From assembly GCF_002001175.1 (NCBI RefSeq), contig NZ_MUNT01000001.1, positions 124,001-188,000 of the forward strand: DNA of 64,000 nt. The letters run 5' to 3'. Under the pieces are notes generated by a model that was not told where the DNA came from, did not search any database, and saw only the letters and a list, made by a program, of their open reading frames with translations. Made by a program: the position numbers and the translations under genes. Shown here one piece after another: positions 18,521 through 56,763 of this stretch; position 1 is the first letter of the stretch; every line of letters starts with the position of its first letter. Source of the stretch: Rhodanobacter sp. C03. GTDB taxonomy: Bacteria > Pseudomonadota > Gammaproteobacteria > Xanthomonadales > Rhodanobacteraceae.

Positions 18521-19537
18521 TCAGCCGACCTTCTTCAGTGGCGCGGCTTCAGCCTTGGCAGCGGACGGCTGCAACCACGGCATCTGCGCGCGCAACTTGG
18601 CGCCGACCACTTCGATCGGATGATCGAGATCGGCCTGCTTCAGGCGTTTGTAGTTCGGCAGGCCGGCTTTGTATTCGGCCGTCCAGTTGCGTGCGAAAGT
18701 GCCGTCCTGGATGTCGGTGAGGACGTCCTTCATGCGTGCCTTGGTGCCGGCGTCGACCACGCGCGGACCGCTGACGTAGTCGCCGTATTGCGCGGTCTCG
18801 GAGACGAACTGCAGCATCTTGGTCAGGCCGCCCTCGTAGAACAGGTCGACGATCAGCTTCAGCTCGTGCATCACTTCGTAGTAGGCGATCTCCGGCTGGT
18901 AGCCGGCCTCGACCAGGGTCTCGAAACCCTTGATTACCAGCTCGCTGGCGCCGCCGCACAGCACCGCCTGCTCGCCGAACAGGTCAGTCTCGGTCTCTTC
19001 CTTGAAGTCGGTCTTGATGATCATCGCGCGGCCGCCACCGATGCCGTCGGCGTAGCCCTTGGTCTTCGCCTCGGCGTGGCCGCTGACGTCCTGGTGCACC
19101 GCCCAGATGCACGGCACGCCACGGCCACGCTCATACTCGCTGCGCACCAGCGCGCCGGGGCCCTTCGGCGCGACCAGGATCACGTCGATGTCGGCGCGCG
19201 GGGTGATCTGCTTGAAGTGCACGTTGAAGCCGTGCGCGAACAACAGCGCGGCGCCCGGCTTGATGTTCGGCTCGATCACTTCCTTGTACAGCGCCGGCTG
19301 CACCATGTCCGGAGTCAGCACGGCGACCAGGTCGGCGCCGCGCACGGCATGGGCTGGCTCGACCACGGCAAAGCCATCGGCCTCGGCACGCTGCCAGGTC
19401 GGGCCGCCGGGACGCAGGCCGACCACGACGTCGAGGCCGGAATCGCGCAGGTTCAGCGCATGCGCGCGGCCCTGGCTGCCGTAGCCGAGTACGGCAATGC
19501 GGGATTTGGCGAGTGGGTTGGTTGGGGCGGTACTCAT
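18521..19537 (-). CDS. ilvC: Ketol-acid reductoisomerase IlvC (class I)
   Basis: 338-aa NAD(P)H- and Mg-dependent enzyme that rearranges and reduces acetohydroxy acids. The Rossmann motif is [13 protein letters not shown] at residues 19-31. The following loop (GLRPGGPTW) belongs to the short class I form, and Mg ligands are in [12 protein letters not shown] and the later E/E motif. Length is normal for class I. Its ATG overlaps the ilvD stop by 4 bp. Confidence 0.97.
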
Positions 19538-21237
19538 GCGGCAACTCCTTCAGTGGTTTCGGTGTGGGTGTGTTTGGATGGGGCGATCGCGGCATGCAGC
19601 TGGGTGGTGGCGCCGTCGGAGGCGGAGCCGACCAGACGCGCGTACTTGGCCAGTGCGCCCTGGGTGACTTTCGGTTTTGGCGGCTGCCAGCTGGCACGAC
19701 GACTGGCGAGATCGGCCGTGGTGCGCAGCTCGCGGTGTTCGGCATCGATCACCACGCGATCGCCCTCACGCAGCAGCGCGATCGGGCCGCCGCGCACCGC
19801 TTCCGGTGCGATGTGGCCGACCATGAAGCCGTGGGTGGCGCCGGAGAAACGGCCGTCGGTGATCAGCGCGACATCGTTGCCGAGGCCGCGACCGACCAGC
19901 GCCGCGGTGACGCCGAGCATCTCGCGCATGCCGGGGCCGCCGGCGGGACCTTCGTTGCGGATCACGATGACGTCGCCGGCGTGGATGCGATCGCCCTGCA
20001 CGGCGGCGAAGGCTTCCTCCTCACTCTCGAACACGCGCGCGCTGCCTTCGAAGTTGCCACTCTTGCCAGCGAGCTTGAGGATGCAGCCTTCCGGCGCGAG
20101 GTTGCCGTACAGGATCGAATAGCCGCCGCGCGGTTTCAGTGGTCGGGTGACCGGATGCACTACATTCTGCGTCTCGGCGCGTGGTGCGGCGGCGGCTTCG
20201 GCAAACAGGCTGCGGCCGGTGACGGTGGGCGCATCGTCCAGCATGCCGGCGGCGATCAGCTCCTGCGCCACGCGCCCGCTGCCACCAGCGCCGAACAGCT
20301 CGACCGCGGTGTAGCGACCGCCGGGCAGCAGGTCGGCGATCACCGGCGTATGCACCGAGGCGGGCTCGAAATCTTCCAGCGCCCACGCGACGCCGGCCTC
20401 GCGCGCGATCGCCAGCAGGTGCAGCACGGCGTTGGTAGAGCCGGCGGTGGCGGCGACCATGCGGGCGGCGTTGCGGAACGAAGTGCGTGTCAGCATTTCG
20501 CGTGGCGTGCGCTCGGTCTTCAGGCATTCCATCACCAGCTCGCCGCAGCGATAGGCCGCGGCACCCTTGGCTGGATGGGTGGCGGGGATGTCGTTGTAGC
20601 CCATCGGCGACAGGCCCAGCGTGGTCAGCACCATCGCCATCGTGTTGGCGGTGAACTGACCGCCACAGGCGCCGGCGCCGGGGCAGGCATCGCGCTCGAC
20701 CGCGGCGAGTTCAGCGTCGTCGATCTTGCCGGCGCCATGTGCGCCGACGGCCTCGAACACCTGCTGGATGGTGATCGGATGGTTGTCGTGCGTGCCGTGC
20801 GCAATGCTGCCGCCGTACAGCGCGACACCGGGAATGTTCAAACGCGCCAGCGCCATCGCCGCGGCAGGAATGGTCTTGTCGCAGCCGCACAGCACCACCA
20901 TCGCGTCGAGGCAGTGGCCGTCCACCGCCAGCTCGATCGAGTCGGTGATCACCTCGCGGCTGATCAACGAGGCACGCATGCCGGGCGTACCCATCGCGAT
21001 GCCGTCGGTCACGGCGATCGTGTTGAACTCGATCGGCGTGCCGCCGGCGGCGCGGATACCGGCGGCCGCTTCGACCGCCAGCTCGCGCAGGTTGAGGTTG
21101 CATGGGCTCACGTTCGACCAGGTGTGCACCACCGCGACCAGCGGTCGGGCAATCGCCGCGTCGTCCAGTCCGGTGGCGCGCAGCATGGCGCGGGCGGGTG
21201 CGCGGTCGGGGCCGCTCTTGATCAGGTCACTGCGCAT
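19534..21237 (-). CDS. ilvD: Dihydroxy-acid dehydratase IlvD
   Basis: 567-aa Fe-S dehydratase forming the 2-oxo acids of valine and isoleucine. Cluster and active-site motifs [13 protein letters not shown] and [18 protein letters not shown] are present, as is the C-terminal [19 protein letters not shown]. The start at ATG 21237 ([12 protein letters not shown]) matches the family N-terminus; an open frame extends upstream but without a good site. A 204-bp gap with two hairpins separates it from leuB, so ilvD may head its own regulated unit. Confidence 0.96.
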
Positions 21238-21266
21238 GGGTGTTCCGTTGGATTGACAAGAAAAAG

Positions 21267-21362
21267 CGTCCCCTGCGTGCAAGGGAAGTTGGCGACACGG
21301 ACGGGAAGGTGCGCCTTGGGAACGCACGGAGGGCATCCGGTGCCGGAAGCACGCAGGGGACG
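21267..21362 (-). promoter_or_regulatory. Attenuator-like long-loop hairpin upstream of ilvD
   Basis: A perfect 14-bp inverted repeat (21349-21362 and 21267-21280; CGTCCCCTGCGTGC and its complement) encloses 68 nt. On the minus strand it is followed at once by CTTTTTCTTG, and ilvD begins 24 nt later. The combination of stem and T-run resembles a terminator whose formation could compete with pairings inside the loop. No branched-chain-rich leader peptide is visible here. Confidence 0.5.
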
Positions 21363-21441: not shown

Positions 21442-22539
21442 TCAGCCGCATGCACGTGTTCCGCGAAAGAAAGCGGCGGCGCTGTCGGCGTACTCCTCGA
21501 TCGCTGCCAGCACGGCGTCGCACACTGCGGCGGTGCCGGCGCTGCCGCCGATGTCGCGGGTGTGCGGGCCATGGCGCAACACCTGGTCAACCGCTGTCTC
21601 GACGGCCACCGCTTCGGCTTCCAGCCCCAGCGAATGACGCAGCAGCATGGCGGCAGAAAGGATCGCGCCGACCGGATTGGCGACGCCATGGCCGGCGATA
21701 TCCGGTGCCGAGCCGTGGATCGGTTCGTACAGGCCGGCCTTGCCTTCACCCAGTGACGCTGACGGCAGCAAGCCGAGCGAACCGGCCAGCGCGGCGGCCT
21801 CGTCGGTGAGGATGTCGCCGAACAGGTTCTCGGTGACCACCACGTCGTAGCGATTCGGCTGGGTCAGCAGCAGCATCGCCATCGAGTCGACCAGCTGGTG
21901 CTCGACCTTCACGTCGGGATAGTCGGCGGCAATGCGTTGCACGGTGCTGCGCCACAGCCGCGAGGTTTCCAGCACGTTTGCCTTGTCCACCGAGGTGACG
22001 TGATGACGACGGCCGCGCGCCAGCTCGAACGCGCGGCGCACCACGCGCTCGATTTCGACGACGGTGTACTTGCATTCGTCGGTGGCGGTGTCGGCTGTGC
22101 GCGTCTTGGCGCCGAAGTAAGCGCCGCCGGTCAGCTCGCGCACGAACAGCACGTCGACGTTCTCCAGTTTCCCGTTCTTCAGCGGCGACAGGTCGGCCAG
22201 CGCCGGATGTACCTGCAGCGGGCGCAGGTTGGCGTAGACACCTAGCGCAGCGCGCAGCGCCAGCAGTCCCTGTTCAGGGCGCACCGACGCGTTCGGGTCG
22301 GACCATTTTGGTCCACCGACGGCACCGAGCAGCACGGCATCGGCGGATTGGCATGCGGCCAGCGACTCAGCCGGCAACGGCGCGCCGGTGGCGTCGATCG
22401 CGGCGCCGCCGATCAACTGCTCGTCGAAGGTGAACTCGTGTTCGTAGCGGGCAGCGATTGTCTTCAGCACTGCGACTGCAGCGGCGGTGACTTCGGGGCC
22501 GACGCCGTCGCCGGGCAGGGTGACGATGTGGGCTTTCAT
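21442..22539 (-). CDS. leuB: 3-isopropylmalate dehydrogenase LeuB
   Basis: 365-aa NAD-dependent decarboxylating dehydrogenase, the third committed step to leucine. It begins [17 protein letters not shown]. Substrate residues lie in [16 protein letters not shown], metal-binding Asp residues in the VDSMAMLL and [19 protein letters not shown] regions, and the NAD signature in [19 protein letters not shown]. The ATG overlaps the leuD stop by 4 bp. Confidence 0.97.
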
Positions 22540-23117
22540 GCAGCCTCCTGGGCTTGTTCGTATTCGGTGATGGCATCGCTGTGTTGCAGCAGGTAGCCAA
22601 GCTGGTCGACGCCGTTGAGCAGGCAGTGCCGCGCGAACGGTTCCAGCCGGAACGGAATACGGCCGCCGTCGGGCAGCGCGATGAACTGCTCGCGCACGTC
22701 GATCACCAGTTCGATGCCGGGGTGCTTGAGCAGCCAGCGGTGTTCCAGTTCGTCGATGACGATCGCCAGCAGGCCGTTCTTCAACGCGTTGCCGCGGAAG
22801 ATGTCTGCAATCTCGCTGCACAGCACCGCCTGCACGCCGTAGTCGAGCAGGGCCCACGGTGCGTGTTCACGCGAGGAGCCGCAGCCGAAGTTGCGTCCGG
22901 CGACCACGATCGAGCAGCCCTGCGCCTGCGGCTGGTTCAAAGGAAACGCCGGGTTGTCGCTGCCATCGGCCTGGTAGCGCCAGTCGTTGAAGCACAGCTT
23001 GCCCAGCCCTTCACGGGTGGTGGTGGTGAGGAAGCGCGCCGGGATGATGCGGTCGGTGTCGATGTTCTCGTCGGCCAGCACGGCGGTGCGCGAGTGGATG
23101 CGGGTGATGGGCTTCAT
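22536..23117 (-). CDS. leuD: 3-isopropylmalate dehydratase small subunit LeuD
   Basis: 193-aa swivel-domain subunit of isopropylmalate isomerase. It shows [17 protein letters not shown] near the N-terminus and the characteristic [17 protein letters not shown] loop. It pairs with LeuC to move the hydroxyl from C2 to C3. Overlaps leuC and leuB by 4 bp each, giving tightly coupled leuC-leuD-leuB translation. Confidence 0.97.
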
Positions 23118-24544
23118 GCGGCTTGCTCCTGCCGGCGGTTATCGCGCACGGCGTAGTCGCGCGGATCGGCAATGCGGCCGGCCAGCGCGGACGCGGCGGC
23201 GGTGGCCGGGCTGGCCAGCACGGTGCGCGCGCCCTTGCCCTGGCGGCCTTCGAAGTTGCGGTTGGAGGTGCTCACCACCAGCTGGCCTGGCTGGGCCAGG
23301 TCGCCGTTCATCGCGATGCACATCGAGCAGCCGGGCACGCGCCACTCGGCACCGGCGGCGGTGAATACCTGATGCAGGCCTTCGCGCTCGGCATCGCGGC
23401 GCACCGCTTCGGAACCCGGCACCACCAGCATGCGCACGCCGTCGGCGACGCGACGGCCACGCAGGACGTTGGCCGCTTCGCGCAGATCCGACAGGCGCGA
23501 GTTGGTGCAGCTGCCGACGAACACCACGTCGACTGGCGTGCCCTGCATCGGCTGGCCAGGTTTGCTCTGCATGTAGTCGAGTGCGCGGTGTTCCTGTGCA
23601 TTGGTCGCGGCCGGCACCGGCGCATCCATCGCGATCGCCATGCCCGGATGGGTGCCGTAGGTGACCGTCGGTTTCACCGCGCTGGCATCGATGCGCACTT
23701 CGCGGTCGTAGGCTGCGCCGTCATCGCTGCGCAGCGCGCGCCACGTCGCGACGGCGACATCCCACGCGGCACCCTGCGGGGTGCGGGGGCGACCCTTCAG
23801 CCACGCGAACGTAGTGTCGTCCGGTGCAATCAGGCCTGCGCGCGCGCCGGCCTCGATCGACATGTTGCAGACGGTCATGCGCTCGTCCATCGACAGCGCC
23901 TCGACCGCTGCACCGCGGTACTCCAGCACGTAGCCGGTGCCACCGTCGACGCCGATCGCGCCGATGATGTGCAGGATCAGATCCTTCGCACTGATACCGG
24001 CGGGCAAGTGGCCGTCCACATGAATCGCCATGGTCTTCGGCTTGCGCTGCAGCAGGCACTGCGTGGCCATCACGTGGCCGACCTCGGTGGTGCCGATGCC
24101 GAACGCCAGCGCACCGAACGCGCCGTGGGTTGAGGTGTGGCTGTCGCCGCAGACGATCGTCATGCCGGGCTGGGTGGCACCCAGCTCGGGGCCGATCACG
24201 TGCACGATGCCACGGTCGGCACTGTCCCAGCCGTGCAGCTCGACGCCGAACTCGCGGCAGTTGGTTTCCAGCTGGGTCACCTGCGCCTGCGCCTCGGCAT
24301 TCGCGTAGGGGCGGCTGCCGTCCGCATTTGTCGGCAAGGTCGGCGTGGAGTGGTCCAGCGTGGCCAGCATGCGATCGGGGCGGCGCAGCTGCAGGCCGCG
24401 CTCGCGCAGTTCGCTGAATGCCTGCGGCGAGGTCACCTCATGCACCAGATGCAGGTCGGCGTAGAGCACGGCCGGCGTGTCGGTGGTTTCGGCGACGACA
24501 ACGTGTGCGTCCCAAACTTTTTCAAACAAGGTCTTGCCGCTCAT
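23114..24544 (-). CDS. leuC: 3-isopropylmalate dehydratase large subunit LeuC
   Basis: 476-aa aconitase-superfamily subunit binding the 4Fe-4S cluster. Cluster Cys residues are in [13 protein letters not shown] and the paired [10 protein letters not shown]. The substrate motif [20 protein letters not shown] is near residue 130. Normal family length. Its ATG overlaps the ilvE stop by 4 bp. Confidence 0.97.
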
Positions 24545-25485
24545 GCAGCCTCCTGTGCAGTGATGTTGGCGTGGACCGGCGTTAGCCAGTTCCAGCGATC
24601 TTCGGTGCGGCCATCGAACAGGCCGAAGAACGCCTGCTGCAGTTGCTTGGTGATCGGCCCAGGCGCACCCTTGCCGACCGGTTTGCGATCGACCGAACGC
24701 ACTGGCGTGATCTCGGCGGCAGTGCCGGTCATGAACACTTCGTCGGCGGTGTACAGCGCCTCGCGCGGCAGGTCGCGCTCTTCCACCGTGATGCCGAGAT
24801 CGGCGGCCAGCGTGAGTACGCTGTCGCGGGTGATGCCGGCGAGGATGCCGGCGCTCGACGGCGGCGTGAGCAACTTGCCGCGCTTGACCAGGAACAGATT
24901 TTCGCCGGCGCCTTCGCTGAGCAGACCGTTGTGGCCCAGCGCGATACCTTCGTCGTAGCCGCCGCGGCGCGCTTCCAGCCCGATCAGCTGGCTGTTGAGG
25001 TAATTGCCGCCGGCCTTGGCCCAGCTAGGTAAGGTGTTCGGTGCGGGGCGATGCCACGAGGACACGCAGACGTCCGCGCCTTTTTCCATCGCGTCGCCCA
25101 GATACGCGCCCCAGTCCAGCGCCATGATTGCCACCTCGACCGGTGCGCCATCCTTCGCCAGCACGCCCAGGCCGCCGGCACCGCGAAACACGATCGGCCG
25201 CACATAGGCCGAGCGCATCGCGTTGGCGCGGATCAGCTCGACGCAGGCGGTGTTGATCTCGTCCTCGCTGTAGCCGATCTCGATCTCGTAGATCGCGGCG
25301 GATTCGAACAATCGGCGGGTGTGCTCGGCCAGCCGGAAATACGCAGGGCCCTGCGGCGTGGCGTAGACGCGTTCGCCCTCGAACACCGATGAGCCGTAGT
25401 GCAGGGCATGCGTGCTGACATGGACGCTGGCATCGGCCCAGGGCTTGATGCGGCCGTTGTGCCAGAGGAAAGGCGTGTTGCTCAT
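24541..25485 (-). CDS. ilvE: Branched-chain amino acid aminotransferase IlvE
   Basis: 314-aa fold-type IV PLP transaminase for the last step of Ile, Val and Leu synthesis. The start [16 protein letters not shown], the [11 protein letters not shown] motif, the PLP Lys in [13 protein letters not shown], and [13 protein letters not shown] are family hallmarks. It sits between leuA (17-bp gap) and leuC (4-bp overlap), so this shared enzyme is embedded in the leucine genes. Confidence 0.96.
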
Positions 25486-25502: not shown

Positions 25503-27098
<1,596 letters not shown>

Positions 27099-27129: not shown

Positions 27130-27161
27130 CAAAAAACCCCGCGCCGTTGCCGGTGCGGGGT
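27130..27161 (-). terminator. leu operon attenuator terminator (with antiterminator partner at 27213-27220)
   Basis: On the minus strand the stem AACCCCGC-ACCG-GCAA-CGGC-GCGGGGTT is followed directly by TTTTTTG, 32 nt before the leuA start. It has an 8-bp outer stem, one mismatch, a 3-bp inner stem and a GCAA tetraloop. Its 5' arm, CCCGCACC (27152-27159), is exactly complementary to GGTGCGGG at 27213-27220, which covers the last codons of the leader peptide. A ribosome at the leader stop would cover that segment and allow termination; a ribosome stalled on the Leu/Val/Ile run would leave it free to block the terminator. Confidence 0.88.
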
Positions 27162-27208
27162 TCTTTGGGAGTCTTCAGGTTACTTTCTATCTACCTGGAC
27201 ACATGCCC

Positions 27209-27346
27209 TCAGCCCGCACCTCCGTTGGTAATAAGGAGTACGAGTACAAGGGCAAGAAGGAGCGTGCCGCGAAGCTGCAGCAGGCCGGCAACCGTCGGGA
27301 GACGGTTGGTTTCGGCGGTGCGGCAGGGGTTGTTGCGTTGCGACAT
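27209..27346 (-). CDS. leuL: Leucine/branched-chain leader peptide
   Basis: 45-codon frame starting MSQRNNPCRT, with the control run LLLALVLVLLIT near residues 29-40 and ending NGGAG before TGA. Ten of the eleven residues from Leu29 to Ile39 are Leu, Val or Ile. It lies immediately upstream of a U-tailed terminator and leuA, the classic order of a transcription attenuator. No ribosome-binding site precedes the ATG, and the predicted -10 box ends only 7 nt before it, so the message is probably leaderless. A perfect 8-bp hairpin (27289-27308) lies inside the coding region and could pause polymerase. Confidence 0.9.
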   Translation of the reverse strand: MSQRNNPCRTAETNRLPTVAGLLQLRGTLLLALVLVLLITNGGAG

Positions 27347-27353
27347 GTGACCG

Positions 27354-27383
27354 ACCATACGCGAAGCCGAAATGGCACGTCAA
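27354..27383 (-). promoter_or_regulatory. leu leader promoter
   Basis: Minus-strand -35 TTGACG (27378-27383), 18-nt spacer, -10 TATGGT (27354-27359). The predicted start of transcription falls at about 27347-27346, on or just before the leader-peptide ATG at 27346. Confidence 0.65.
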
Positions 27384-27606: not shown

Positions 27607-28926
27607 TCAAGCTTGGGCGTGCTGCAGCAGCCATTGCCGCAATGCGTTTTCGTCGGCAGCCAGCGGCTCGGACGAGGCCGGGAGGGCCAGCATCGCCGCG
27701 AGTGACACGGGCACCGCAAGCGATTGCCCGATCAGCGGTTCGACCACGCTCTCGAACTTGGCCGGGTGCGCAGTGGCGACCACGGCCCACGGAGTTGTGT
27801 CGCCGCTCGCGCGCAGCCGATCGAGCAGATGCACGGCAGTGGCGGTGTGTGGGCAGAACACGTCGCCGTGGTCGTGTGCGTGGCTGGCGATGGTTTGCCG
27901 GATCGCCGCATCGTCGACACTGGCGGCCTGCAGTTGCTCACGTAAGGTGTGTTCATCCTGATAAGTCCATCGCAGCCGATCGAAGTTGCTCGGCGCACCC
28001 ACGTCCATCGCATTCGCCAACGAGGCGACCGCTTCGCGCGGGGCGTAAGCGGCGCCGGAAAAATAGTCGGGCAGGGTGGCGTTTGCATTGCAGGCCAGCC
28101 GCACAGTGCCCACCGGCAGGCCGATCTCGCGCACCCACAGGCAGGCCAGCGCGTTGCCGAGGTTGCCGGTGGGCACGATGAAGTTCAGCGGTGTGCCGTG
28201 TTCGCGCCACCAGCCCAGCGCGGCGTGCGCGTAGTAGCTCATCTGCGGCAGTAGGCGGCCCAAGCTGATGCTGTTGGCCGATGACAGCGGCAGCTGCGCC
28301 TGCAGCGTGGCATCGCCGAGTGCCGCCTTGACCATGCGCTGGCAATCGTCGAAGCGGCCGGCCACGCGTAGCGCAGTAACGTTGTCGCCGAAGCAGCCGA
28401 GCTGGTGTGCTTGCCGAGGTGAGACCAGTCCGTCGGGATACAGGATCACCACGCGCACGTTCGGCTGGCGATGGAAAGCTGCAGCAACTGCCGCACCGGT
28501 ATCGCCTGAAGTAGCGACCAGGATCGTCAGTGGTCGTGCATCGGTGCGCGGCAGCCGGCGCAAGCAGGCGGCGAGGAAGCGTGCGCCGAAATCCTTGAAG
28601 GCCGAGGTGGGGCCTTGGAACAGCTCCAGCATCATGGTATTCGGAAGCGCCGGCATTGCACGCAGCGGTGCGTCAAACGTGAACGCCTCCGCGCAGATCG
28701 CCGCCAATTCGTCGCCGAGCGGATCATCGGCGAAGAACGGCGCCAGCAAGGTTGTGGCGGTGTCGGCCAACGAGCCGTGCGGATCGAACGCAGCCGGATC
28801 GATTGACGGCAATGCCTCTGGCACATATAGGCCACCATCGGGCGCGAGTCCAGCGGCGATCGCCTGACTGATCGGCACGGTTGGACCGGCGCCGCGGGTG
28901 CTGTGATAGCGCACCGGTTCGCTCAT
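27607..28926 (-). CDS. thrC: Threonine synthase ThrC
   Basis: 439-aa PLP enzyme converting O-phosphohomoserine to threonine. It begins VRYHSTRGAGPTVPISQAI. The PLP Lys lies in GPTSAFKDFGARFLA near residue 110, the phosphate loop in VATSGDTGAAVAAAF, and FIVPTGNLGNALA follows. Length fits the shorter proteobacterial class. It follows thrB after a 118-bp gap filled by an inverted repeat. Last gene of hom-thrB-thrC; its product feeds ilvA at the far end of the block. Confidence 0.96.
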   Translation of the reverse strand: MSEPVRYHSTRGAGPTVPISQAIAAGLAPDGGLYVPEALPSIDPAAFDPHGSLADTATTLLAPFFADDPLGDELAAICAEAFTFDAPLRAMPALPNTMMLELFQGPTSAFKDFGARFLAACLRRLPRTDARPLTILVATSGDTGAAVAAAFHRQPNVRVVILYPDGLVSPRQAHQLGCFGDNVTALRVAGRFDDCQRMVKAALGDATLQAQLPLSSANSISLGRLLPQMSYYAHAALGWWREHGTPLNFIVPTGNLGNALACLWVREIGLPVGTVRLACNANATLPDYFSGAAYAPREAVASLANAMDVGAPSNFDRLRWTYQDEHTLREQLQAASVDDAAIRQTIASHAHDHGDVFCPHTATAVHLLDRLRASGDTTPWAVVATAHPAKFESVVEPLIGQSLAVPVSLAAMLALPASSEPLAADENALRQWLLQHAQA

Positions 28927-56686: not shown

Positions 56687-56763
56687 GCGCCCGTAGCTCA
56701 GCTGGATAGAGTACTGCCCTCCGAAGGCAGGGGTCGTGGGTTCGAATCCCGCCGGGCGCACCA
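56687..56763 (+). tRNA. tRNA-Arg (anticodon CCG)
   Basis: 77-nt cloverleaf including encoded CCA. The 7-bp acceptor stem is GCGCCCG/CGGGCGC, the D-arm contains AGCTCAGCTGGATAGAGT, and the anticodon stem CTGCC/GGCAG closes the loop CTCCGAA with anticodon CCG. The T-arm is GTGGGTTCGAATCCCGC. It reads CGG codons. The acceptor 3' end is followed within 100 bp by a mobile-element relic. Confidence 0.97.

Follow-up and report, generated by a model that had tools for sequence, protein, structure and literature searches.

A predicted leader-peptide attenuator ahead of leuA in Rhodanobacter sp. C03, probably carried on an mRNA that starts at its own AUG

How is transcription into the branched-chain amino acid genes of Rhodanobacter sp. 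C03 controlled, given that leuA is preceded by a short reading frame rich in leucine, valine and isoleucine codons and by a hairpin with a T tract? The locus lies on NZ_MUNT01000001.1 in a stretch of 64,000 nt that was analysed as a whole (the window), to which all coordinates refer, and the control element is on the minus strand. The first structural gene, leuA (25503..27098; Pfam HMGL-like and LeuA_dimer), is followed on the same strand by an ilvE-type aminotransferase gene (24541..25485; Aminotran_4) and, further on, by ilvD (19534..21336; ILVD_EDD_N and ILV_EDD_C); the frames in between we take, from their translations, to be leuC (23114-24544), leuD (22536-23117) and leuB (inside 21442-22857). 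Our reading, to which we assign a probability of about 0.88, is that of a classical ribosome-mediated attenuator of leuA-ilvE-leuCDB-ilvD, presumably transcribed together, which senses charged Leu-, Val- and Ile-tRNA and whose leader is most likely leaderless. For the most part this is an ordinary finding: the regulator is of a known kind, and what is new is the family. The most distinctive feature, a promoter-locked and probably leaderless start, has no counterpart in the initial annotation of this DNA.

The element opens with a promoter of the sigma-70 type, whose -35 hexamer TTGACG (27378..27383) and -10 hexamer TATGGT (27354..27359) were recognized in the sequence and by a promoter scan, the latter hexamer lying 7 nt before an ATG. 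From this ATG at 27346, a probably leaderless frame of 45 codons extends to a TGA ending at 27209 (27209..27346; translation MSQRNNPCRTAETNRLPTVAGLLQLRGTLLLALVLVLLITNGGAG), with LLLALVLVLLITNGGAG as the second half of the peptide. Codons 29-39 (27230..27262) constitute the control run, CTC CTT CTT GCC CTT GTA CTC GTA CTC CTT ATT. It overlaps a predicted 1:2 protector hairpin (27204..27254), in which 27254-27235 pairs with 27223-27204, and the last leader codons contain region 2, the antiterminator arm GGTGCGGG (27213..27220). Region 3, the 5' arm of the terminator and partner of region 2, is CCCGCACC (27152..27159), and between regions 2 and 3 a small hairpin, GTCCAGGT...ACCTG-AA-GAC, is found (27171..27200). 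The predicted intrinsic terminator (3:4) with its T tract (27131..27166) has a GC-rich hairpin situated about 40 nt past the leader stop and ahead of leuA (27098). A simple pattern scanner run on the window did not list this terminator (27166-27131), though the fold predicts the hairpin. What the initial annotation had described, a 45-codon Leu/Val/Ile-rich frame between a promoter and a U-tailed terminator before leuA, is therefore present in the sequence.

Conservation of this layout was examined in deduplicated leuA upstream regions, and 71 of 88 carry the leader pattern (70 by pattern, L134 by inspection). Among the 17 regions without it, twelve belong to other families, four are named Lysobacter and one Dokdonella; in at least two (L141 and L149), the covariance model R1, built from the leader-bearing regions, finds a match just upstream of leuA (genomes G094 and G096). 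From 80 named loci, 25 entered the leader search, the rest being mostly from other orders. L119 was dropped because the motif used for placing leuA was absent from the fetched stretch; the model finds a leader in its genome (G059). The resulting alignment, A1, comprises 71 rows and 68 distinct sequences. Across the latter, the 1:2 hairpin is paired in 93% of cells, the small hairpin in 85% (4 of 8 pairs changed on both sides) and the terminator in 97% (5 of 15 pairs). Taken together, 10 of the 41 pairs of these three helices have changed on both sides, against a shuffle mean of 2.9. When the partners are slid, pairing falls to 38-52%, with a slide of +3 still giving 9 double-changed pairs against the real 10. 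The 2:3 core is paired in 99.4% of cells with zero changes on both sides in close relatives, where its covariation score of 0.054 is below that of a +1 slide control (0.067). Within close relatives, the evidence for 2:3 is conservation rather than covariation, which comes from distant copies only.

For these distant copies, an alignment built with model R1 was used, which holds the 1:2 and 3:4 pairs but not 2:3 and thus was not built on that pairing; it contains 50 of 60 fetched loci, and 29 opposite-strand or partial matches were dropped. At least seven of the eight 2:3 pairs are kept in 37 of the 50 rows and fewer in 13, some of which may be alignment faults and others real losses. The third pair is T-A in 27 rows, A-T in 4, T-G in 3, C-G in 2 and G-T in 1; 9 rows have no pair at this place and 4 have a gap. 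In one family (L198, L199, L200, L239) an inserted base is matched on the other arm (GGTAGCGGG / CCCGCTACC). To judge from these aligned sequences, compensatory changes in the antiterminator pairing appear in the distant copies. A finder for the terminator together with a 2:3 helix returned no helix in 11 of the 60 fetched loci. The initial annotation had proposed a leader-peptide attenuator of the leu/ilv operon, and this proposal is upheld by the conserved codon run, terminator and complementary segment. It had also suggested aligning relatives for the codon run and for compensatory changes in the 8-bp pairing: both features are conserved, and compensation is seen in distant copies, but there is none in close relatives.

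As an RNA, the 223-nt leader is predicted to fold at -92 kcal/mol, better than 200 of 200 shuffles (z = -4.27). Region 2 (27220-27213) and region 3 (27159-27152) are exact complements over 8 bp, as had been pointed out earlier from the sequence, and this pairing is the core of 2:3. In dinucleotide shuffles of the end of the reading frame, 43 of 5000 reach an 8-bp exact match with the terminator arm, and among 70 relatives, 69 have a longest exact complement of at least 7 bp; since the match by itself is only moderately unlikely, conservation rather than chance alone carries the argument. Folded as fragments, the 1:2 hairpin (27254-27204) is given -23.0 kcal/mol, and the 2:3 antiterminator, which encloses most of the small hairpin, -28.9 kcal/mol. 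The initial annotation had held that no separate 1:2 hairpin is needed. This does not stand: a strong and conserved 1:2 hairpin is predicted, overlapping the control codons as in the textbook case, and a two-state layout without it was rejected on account of its predicted energy, of the 93% of cells paired and of its dominance when the ribosome is upstream. Region 2 could find another partner in a second copy of CCGCACC near the start of the leader (ORF offset 23); this copy was set aside because it is the control-codon arm that gives the 1:2 pairing in the fold.

The consequences of ribosome position were modelled as equilibrium pairing of the RNA downstream of the ribosome only, the footprint being assumed to extend 10 nt past the A-site codon. 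While the ribosome is at codons 21-22, it is the 1:2 hairpin that dominates (P = 0.87-0.88). The probability of 2:3 is already 0.56-0.86 at codons 23-27, ahead of the control run, is at least 0.80 for codons 25-39, drops to 0.43 at codon 40 and is 0.00 from codon 41 to the stop, so that the control run, codons 29-39, coincides with the switching window. That a ribosome at the stop codon covers the antiterminator, as had been claimed, agrees with the model, in which region 2 is hidden from codon 41 through the stop. The 71 relatives behave alike: at the tested positions between 16 and 7 codons ahead of the stop, the antiterminator is on (P >= 0.5) in 71 of 71, whereas once the ribosome is within 6 codons of the stop it is on in 0 of 71. 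A ribosome-free leader gives P(2:3) = 0.52. Once arm 4 is present, the terminator is the more stable fold, and antitermination must, therefore, be kinetic. Within the limits of such folding, the element is a ribosome-mediated transcription attenuator, combining the codon run, a predicted terminator, mutually exclusive 2:3 and 3:4 pairings and a 1:2 protector.

Most codons of the control run are seldom used in the operon genes. Over the final 20 codons of 131 leaders (3 duplicates), leucine is encoded by CTC or CTT in 93% and by CTG in 4.6%, while CTG makes up 74% of leucine codons in five operon genes; GTA accounts for 69% of valine codons in the leader ends versus 3% in these genes, and ATT for 90% of isoleucine codons versus 10%, the leaders being drawn from many genomes and the reference genes from this window only. 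On 128 distinct leaders, the shares remain the same within 0.5 points. Relatives have a median leader peptide of 45 aa, and in this window the control run is preceded by 28 codons. The peptide varies in its middle part; the start AUG-NCG-CAR-CGC (27346-27335 in the window) is conserved in most of the 71 leaders. Codon 2 is TCG in 51, ACG in 12, CCG in 7 and CCT in 1, so that all 71 leaders have C as the second base and 70 of 71 have G as the third while the amino acid varies, which looks like selection on the RNA. Possibly, these first codons are a signal for leaderless initiation.

Arranged as a mechanism, these features would work as follows. RNA polymerase would begin the transcript on the A of the leader AUG, or no more than 1-2 nt away from it, and this 5' AUG would be loaded by a ribosome. 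With ample leucine, valine and isoleucine, it would reach the stop codon and cover region 2, upon which 3:4 would form and transcription end before leuA. Should any one of the charged tRNAs be short, the ribosome would stall at codons 29-39 and cover region 1; with 1:2 blocked, region 2 would pair with region 3, the terminator would be pre-empted and the operon read. With the ribosome absent or still upstream, 1:2 would form and termination be favoured.

How widely the element occurs was assessed with model R1: among 299 genomes of the order, 214 have a match at E <= 0.01 and 181 at E <= 1e-4. The genome of strain C03 itself gives 18 other matches, none better than E 0.0017 and one being the element read on the opposite strand; as chance matches thus begin at E = 0.0017, 181 of 299 is the fairer figure. 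Two candidates for further copies in this genome (L241 and L243) were rejected as terminator-like hairpins just after a gene end, with no leader ORF seen. At least three genomes of the same family (G045, G161, G229) have no R1 match. When 274 genomes sampled from the class are searched, 16 give a match at E <= 1e-4; since three of these belong to the order, the figure outside it is 13 of 271. Weak matches outside the order at L288, L289, L292 and L296 have leader-like ORFs of 25-29 aa without the promoter-locked spacing, and in L296, AGGAG precedes the leader-like ATG.

All 60 fetched matches from the order, hand-picked so as to favour other families (42 from these, 18 from the same family), have a leader ORF rich in branched-chain codons. 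Three of them (L228, L232, L237) duplicate alignment rows, so that 57 fetched loci are distinct and 131 rows reduce to 128. The gene after the leader, classed by motif and confirmed by Pfam in six cases, is leuA in 21, ilvD in 18, ilvC in 17, ilvE in 2 and ilvB/G in 2; in the other families of the order (L181-L219, L239, L240), the leader mostly stands before ilvD, ilvC, ilvE or ilvB/G, not leuA. The attenuator unit, therefore, travels with the pathway and not with leuA, and, going by the neighbouring genes, it appears to have followed rearrangements of the branched-chain operon.

The second question concerns the start of the leader mRNA. The promoter TTGACG-18-TATGGT (27383-27354) is the single hit of a scan that yields a mean of 0.1 in shuffles. 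Transcription start at an AUG follows from ordinary sigma-70 spacing, and the 7 nt between the -10 hexamer and the ATG place the predicted start on the A of the ATG (+/- 1-2 nt); if this promoter is used, a 5' UTR carrying a Shine-Dalgarno sequence would not fit in. The spacing is kept among relatives: counted from its first base, TTGA[CA] is situated 35-38 nt ahead of the ATG in 120 of 128 distinct loci and 32-39 nt ahead of it in 122 of 128 (-37 in 70, -36 in 36, -35 in 8, -38 in 6, -39 in 1, -32 in 1, missing in 6). When in-frame ATGs are chosen anew and the -35 pattern is relaxed, the spacing is present in 59 of the 60 fetched loci, L193 being the exception; this renewed choice favours the result, and the starts behind the overall counts on branched-chain leaders had likewise been selected with an eye to the promoter spacing. 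A search for Shine-Dalgarno-like 4-mers (GGAG, GAGG, AGGA) at -18 to -4 finds them in 1 of 71 loci and, in the second set, in 0 of 59. Phase-locked promoters together with the near-absence of Shine-Dalgarno motifs suggest that the leader mRNA probably begins at its own AUG and is translated as a leaderless message. As a weak control, 0 of 11 ATG-start ORFs show the spacing among the 13 matches outside the order, which are mostly probable chance hits, only L289 standing before a branched-chain gene.

The same spacing is seen at a neighbouring threonine-rich leader (31452-31300, minus strand; peptide MSPLSTPARMHAVPVSTGHLPLPAGVNSRSIATTITTTTTTRSGWVSVRE) before homoserine dehydrogenase (31197), where the promoter TTGACC-18-TAACGT is again followed by 7 nt and then by the ORF (element 31489-31195). 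In the family (best 30 of 59 genomes), 30 of 30 loci have TTGA[CA] between -36 and -38, candidates with the promoter spacing having been preferred when several ATGs were possible; this repetition speaks for a general habit and not for something special to leu. No T tract was found there (31282-31201, alignment A2). A conserved hairpin at 31282-31258 is paired in 99.3% of cells, and another, over the Shine-Dalgarno sequence of homoserine dehydrogenase (31216-31201), in 83.8% with 3 of 7 pairs double-changed. In this window, the last leader codons include GGGTGGG (31323-31317), which can pair with the 5' arm of the first hairpin. The thr leader may, in such a model, be a ribosome-controlled translational attenuator. 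A his leader was also sought: 11 pattern matches were obtained and 8 loci scanned, with only a repetitive His/Gln ORF lacking the promoter spacing. We consider it likely, judging from promoter spacing, that the order Lysobacterales/Xanthomonadales runs amino-acid attenuators (branched-chain ones and, in Rhodanobacteraceae, thr) from leaderless, AUG-phase-locked mRNAs.

Several other explanations were weighed against this reading. The same attenuator might be carried on an ordinary leadered mRNA from a promoter further upstream, the spacing reflecting something else; read-through from the thr operon is conceivable, and an in-frame ATG lies 12 nt upstream of the chosen one. That ATG, however, falls inside the -10 hexamer, and a leadered origin would have to accommodate the -35 box at 35-38 nt in 120 of 128 loci, the scarcity of Shine-Dalgarno-like motifs, the equal spacing of the thr leader in 30 of 30 loci and the lack of such spacing in the 11 weak-match ORFs outside the order, which together render it improbable. 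Less probable still is that the leader peptide acts in trans, besides or instead of attenuation, in the manner of S. meliloti peTrpL, a leaderless product for which a trans role is reported (PMC7298713). The start AUG-NCG-CAR-CGC, shared by most of the 71 leaders, would fit such a role; yet codon 2 changes its amino acid while keeping its bases, resembling selection at the RNA level, the middle of the peptide is variable, and its end is explained by pairing and control codons.

Least credible of all is the view that the hairpin at 27131-27166 merely terminates the upstream thr genes, the leader ORF being there by accident. An ORF that resembles threonine synthase, to judge from its translation only, does end at 27607 on the same strand, but a promoter and a conserved ORF intervene between it and the hairpin, the unit also stands before ilvC, ilvD, ilvE and ilvB/G in other families, and the compensatory changes support mutually exclusive pairings. 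Ribosome-mediated attenuation from a probably leaderless leader is, thus, preferred.

If the leaderless start is real, it links leaderless translation with the timing of transcription and translation in attenuation. Leaderless initiation would then govern how the sensing ribosome loads, attenuation could also answer conditions that favour or block such initiation, and the approximately 28 mostly variable codons before the control run would replace the missing 5' UTR.

Attenuators of this kind are well known from the ilvGMEDA and leuABCD operons of Escherichia coli, with a short ORF of branched-chain control codons, 1:2, 2:3 and 3:4 pairings and a terminator before the operon. The present element resembles them in its control-codon ORF, three alternative pairings and terminator, and it is multivalent for leucine, valine and isoleucine as in ilvGMEDA; unlike both, it has no Shine-Dalgarno sequence, apparently no 5' UTR and a longer peptide. 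The enterobacterial Rfam model Leu_leader (RF00512) reaches 17.2 bits here against a gathering cut-off of 50, and Thr_leader (RF00506) 24.9 against 55; the only gathering-level Rfam match in the window is a tRNA at 56687-56760, with none at the leader. Hence, an attenuator family that Rfam does not recognize in this window seems to control branched-chain synthesis across many genomes of the order. Among the matches listed in the open-access literature, there was no report of a branched-chain attenuator for this order, which is weak evidence of absence; a survey of proteobacterial attenuators by Vitreschak et al. in 2004 may already list Xanthomonas members.

Leaderless leaders of attenuators are already known, reported examples being Sinorhizobium meliloti trpL and Corynebacterium glutamicum ilvBNC. 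In S. meliloti, the rnTrpL transcript, which is subject to transcription attenuation, is described as beginning with the ATG of trpL, as predicted here, but it concerns tryptophan, a 14-aa peptide and an alphaproteobacterium (PMC7298713). Mycobacterial polycysteine short ORFs are reportedly leaderless amino-acid attenuators as well, but for cysteine and in Actinobacteria. C. glutamicum ilvBNC is, as here, a branched-chain operon. Its control codons include CUU and GUA (PMC11857589), its leader peptide is reported to be made although a ribosome binding site is lacking (Morbach et al. 2000, cited in PMC4046766), and hairpins acting as terminator, antiterminator and anti-antiterminator are described (PMC11857589; PMC4046766). 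Its peptide, in contrast, has 15 aa and its host belongs to the Actinobacteria.
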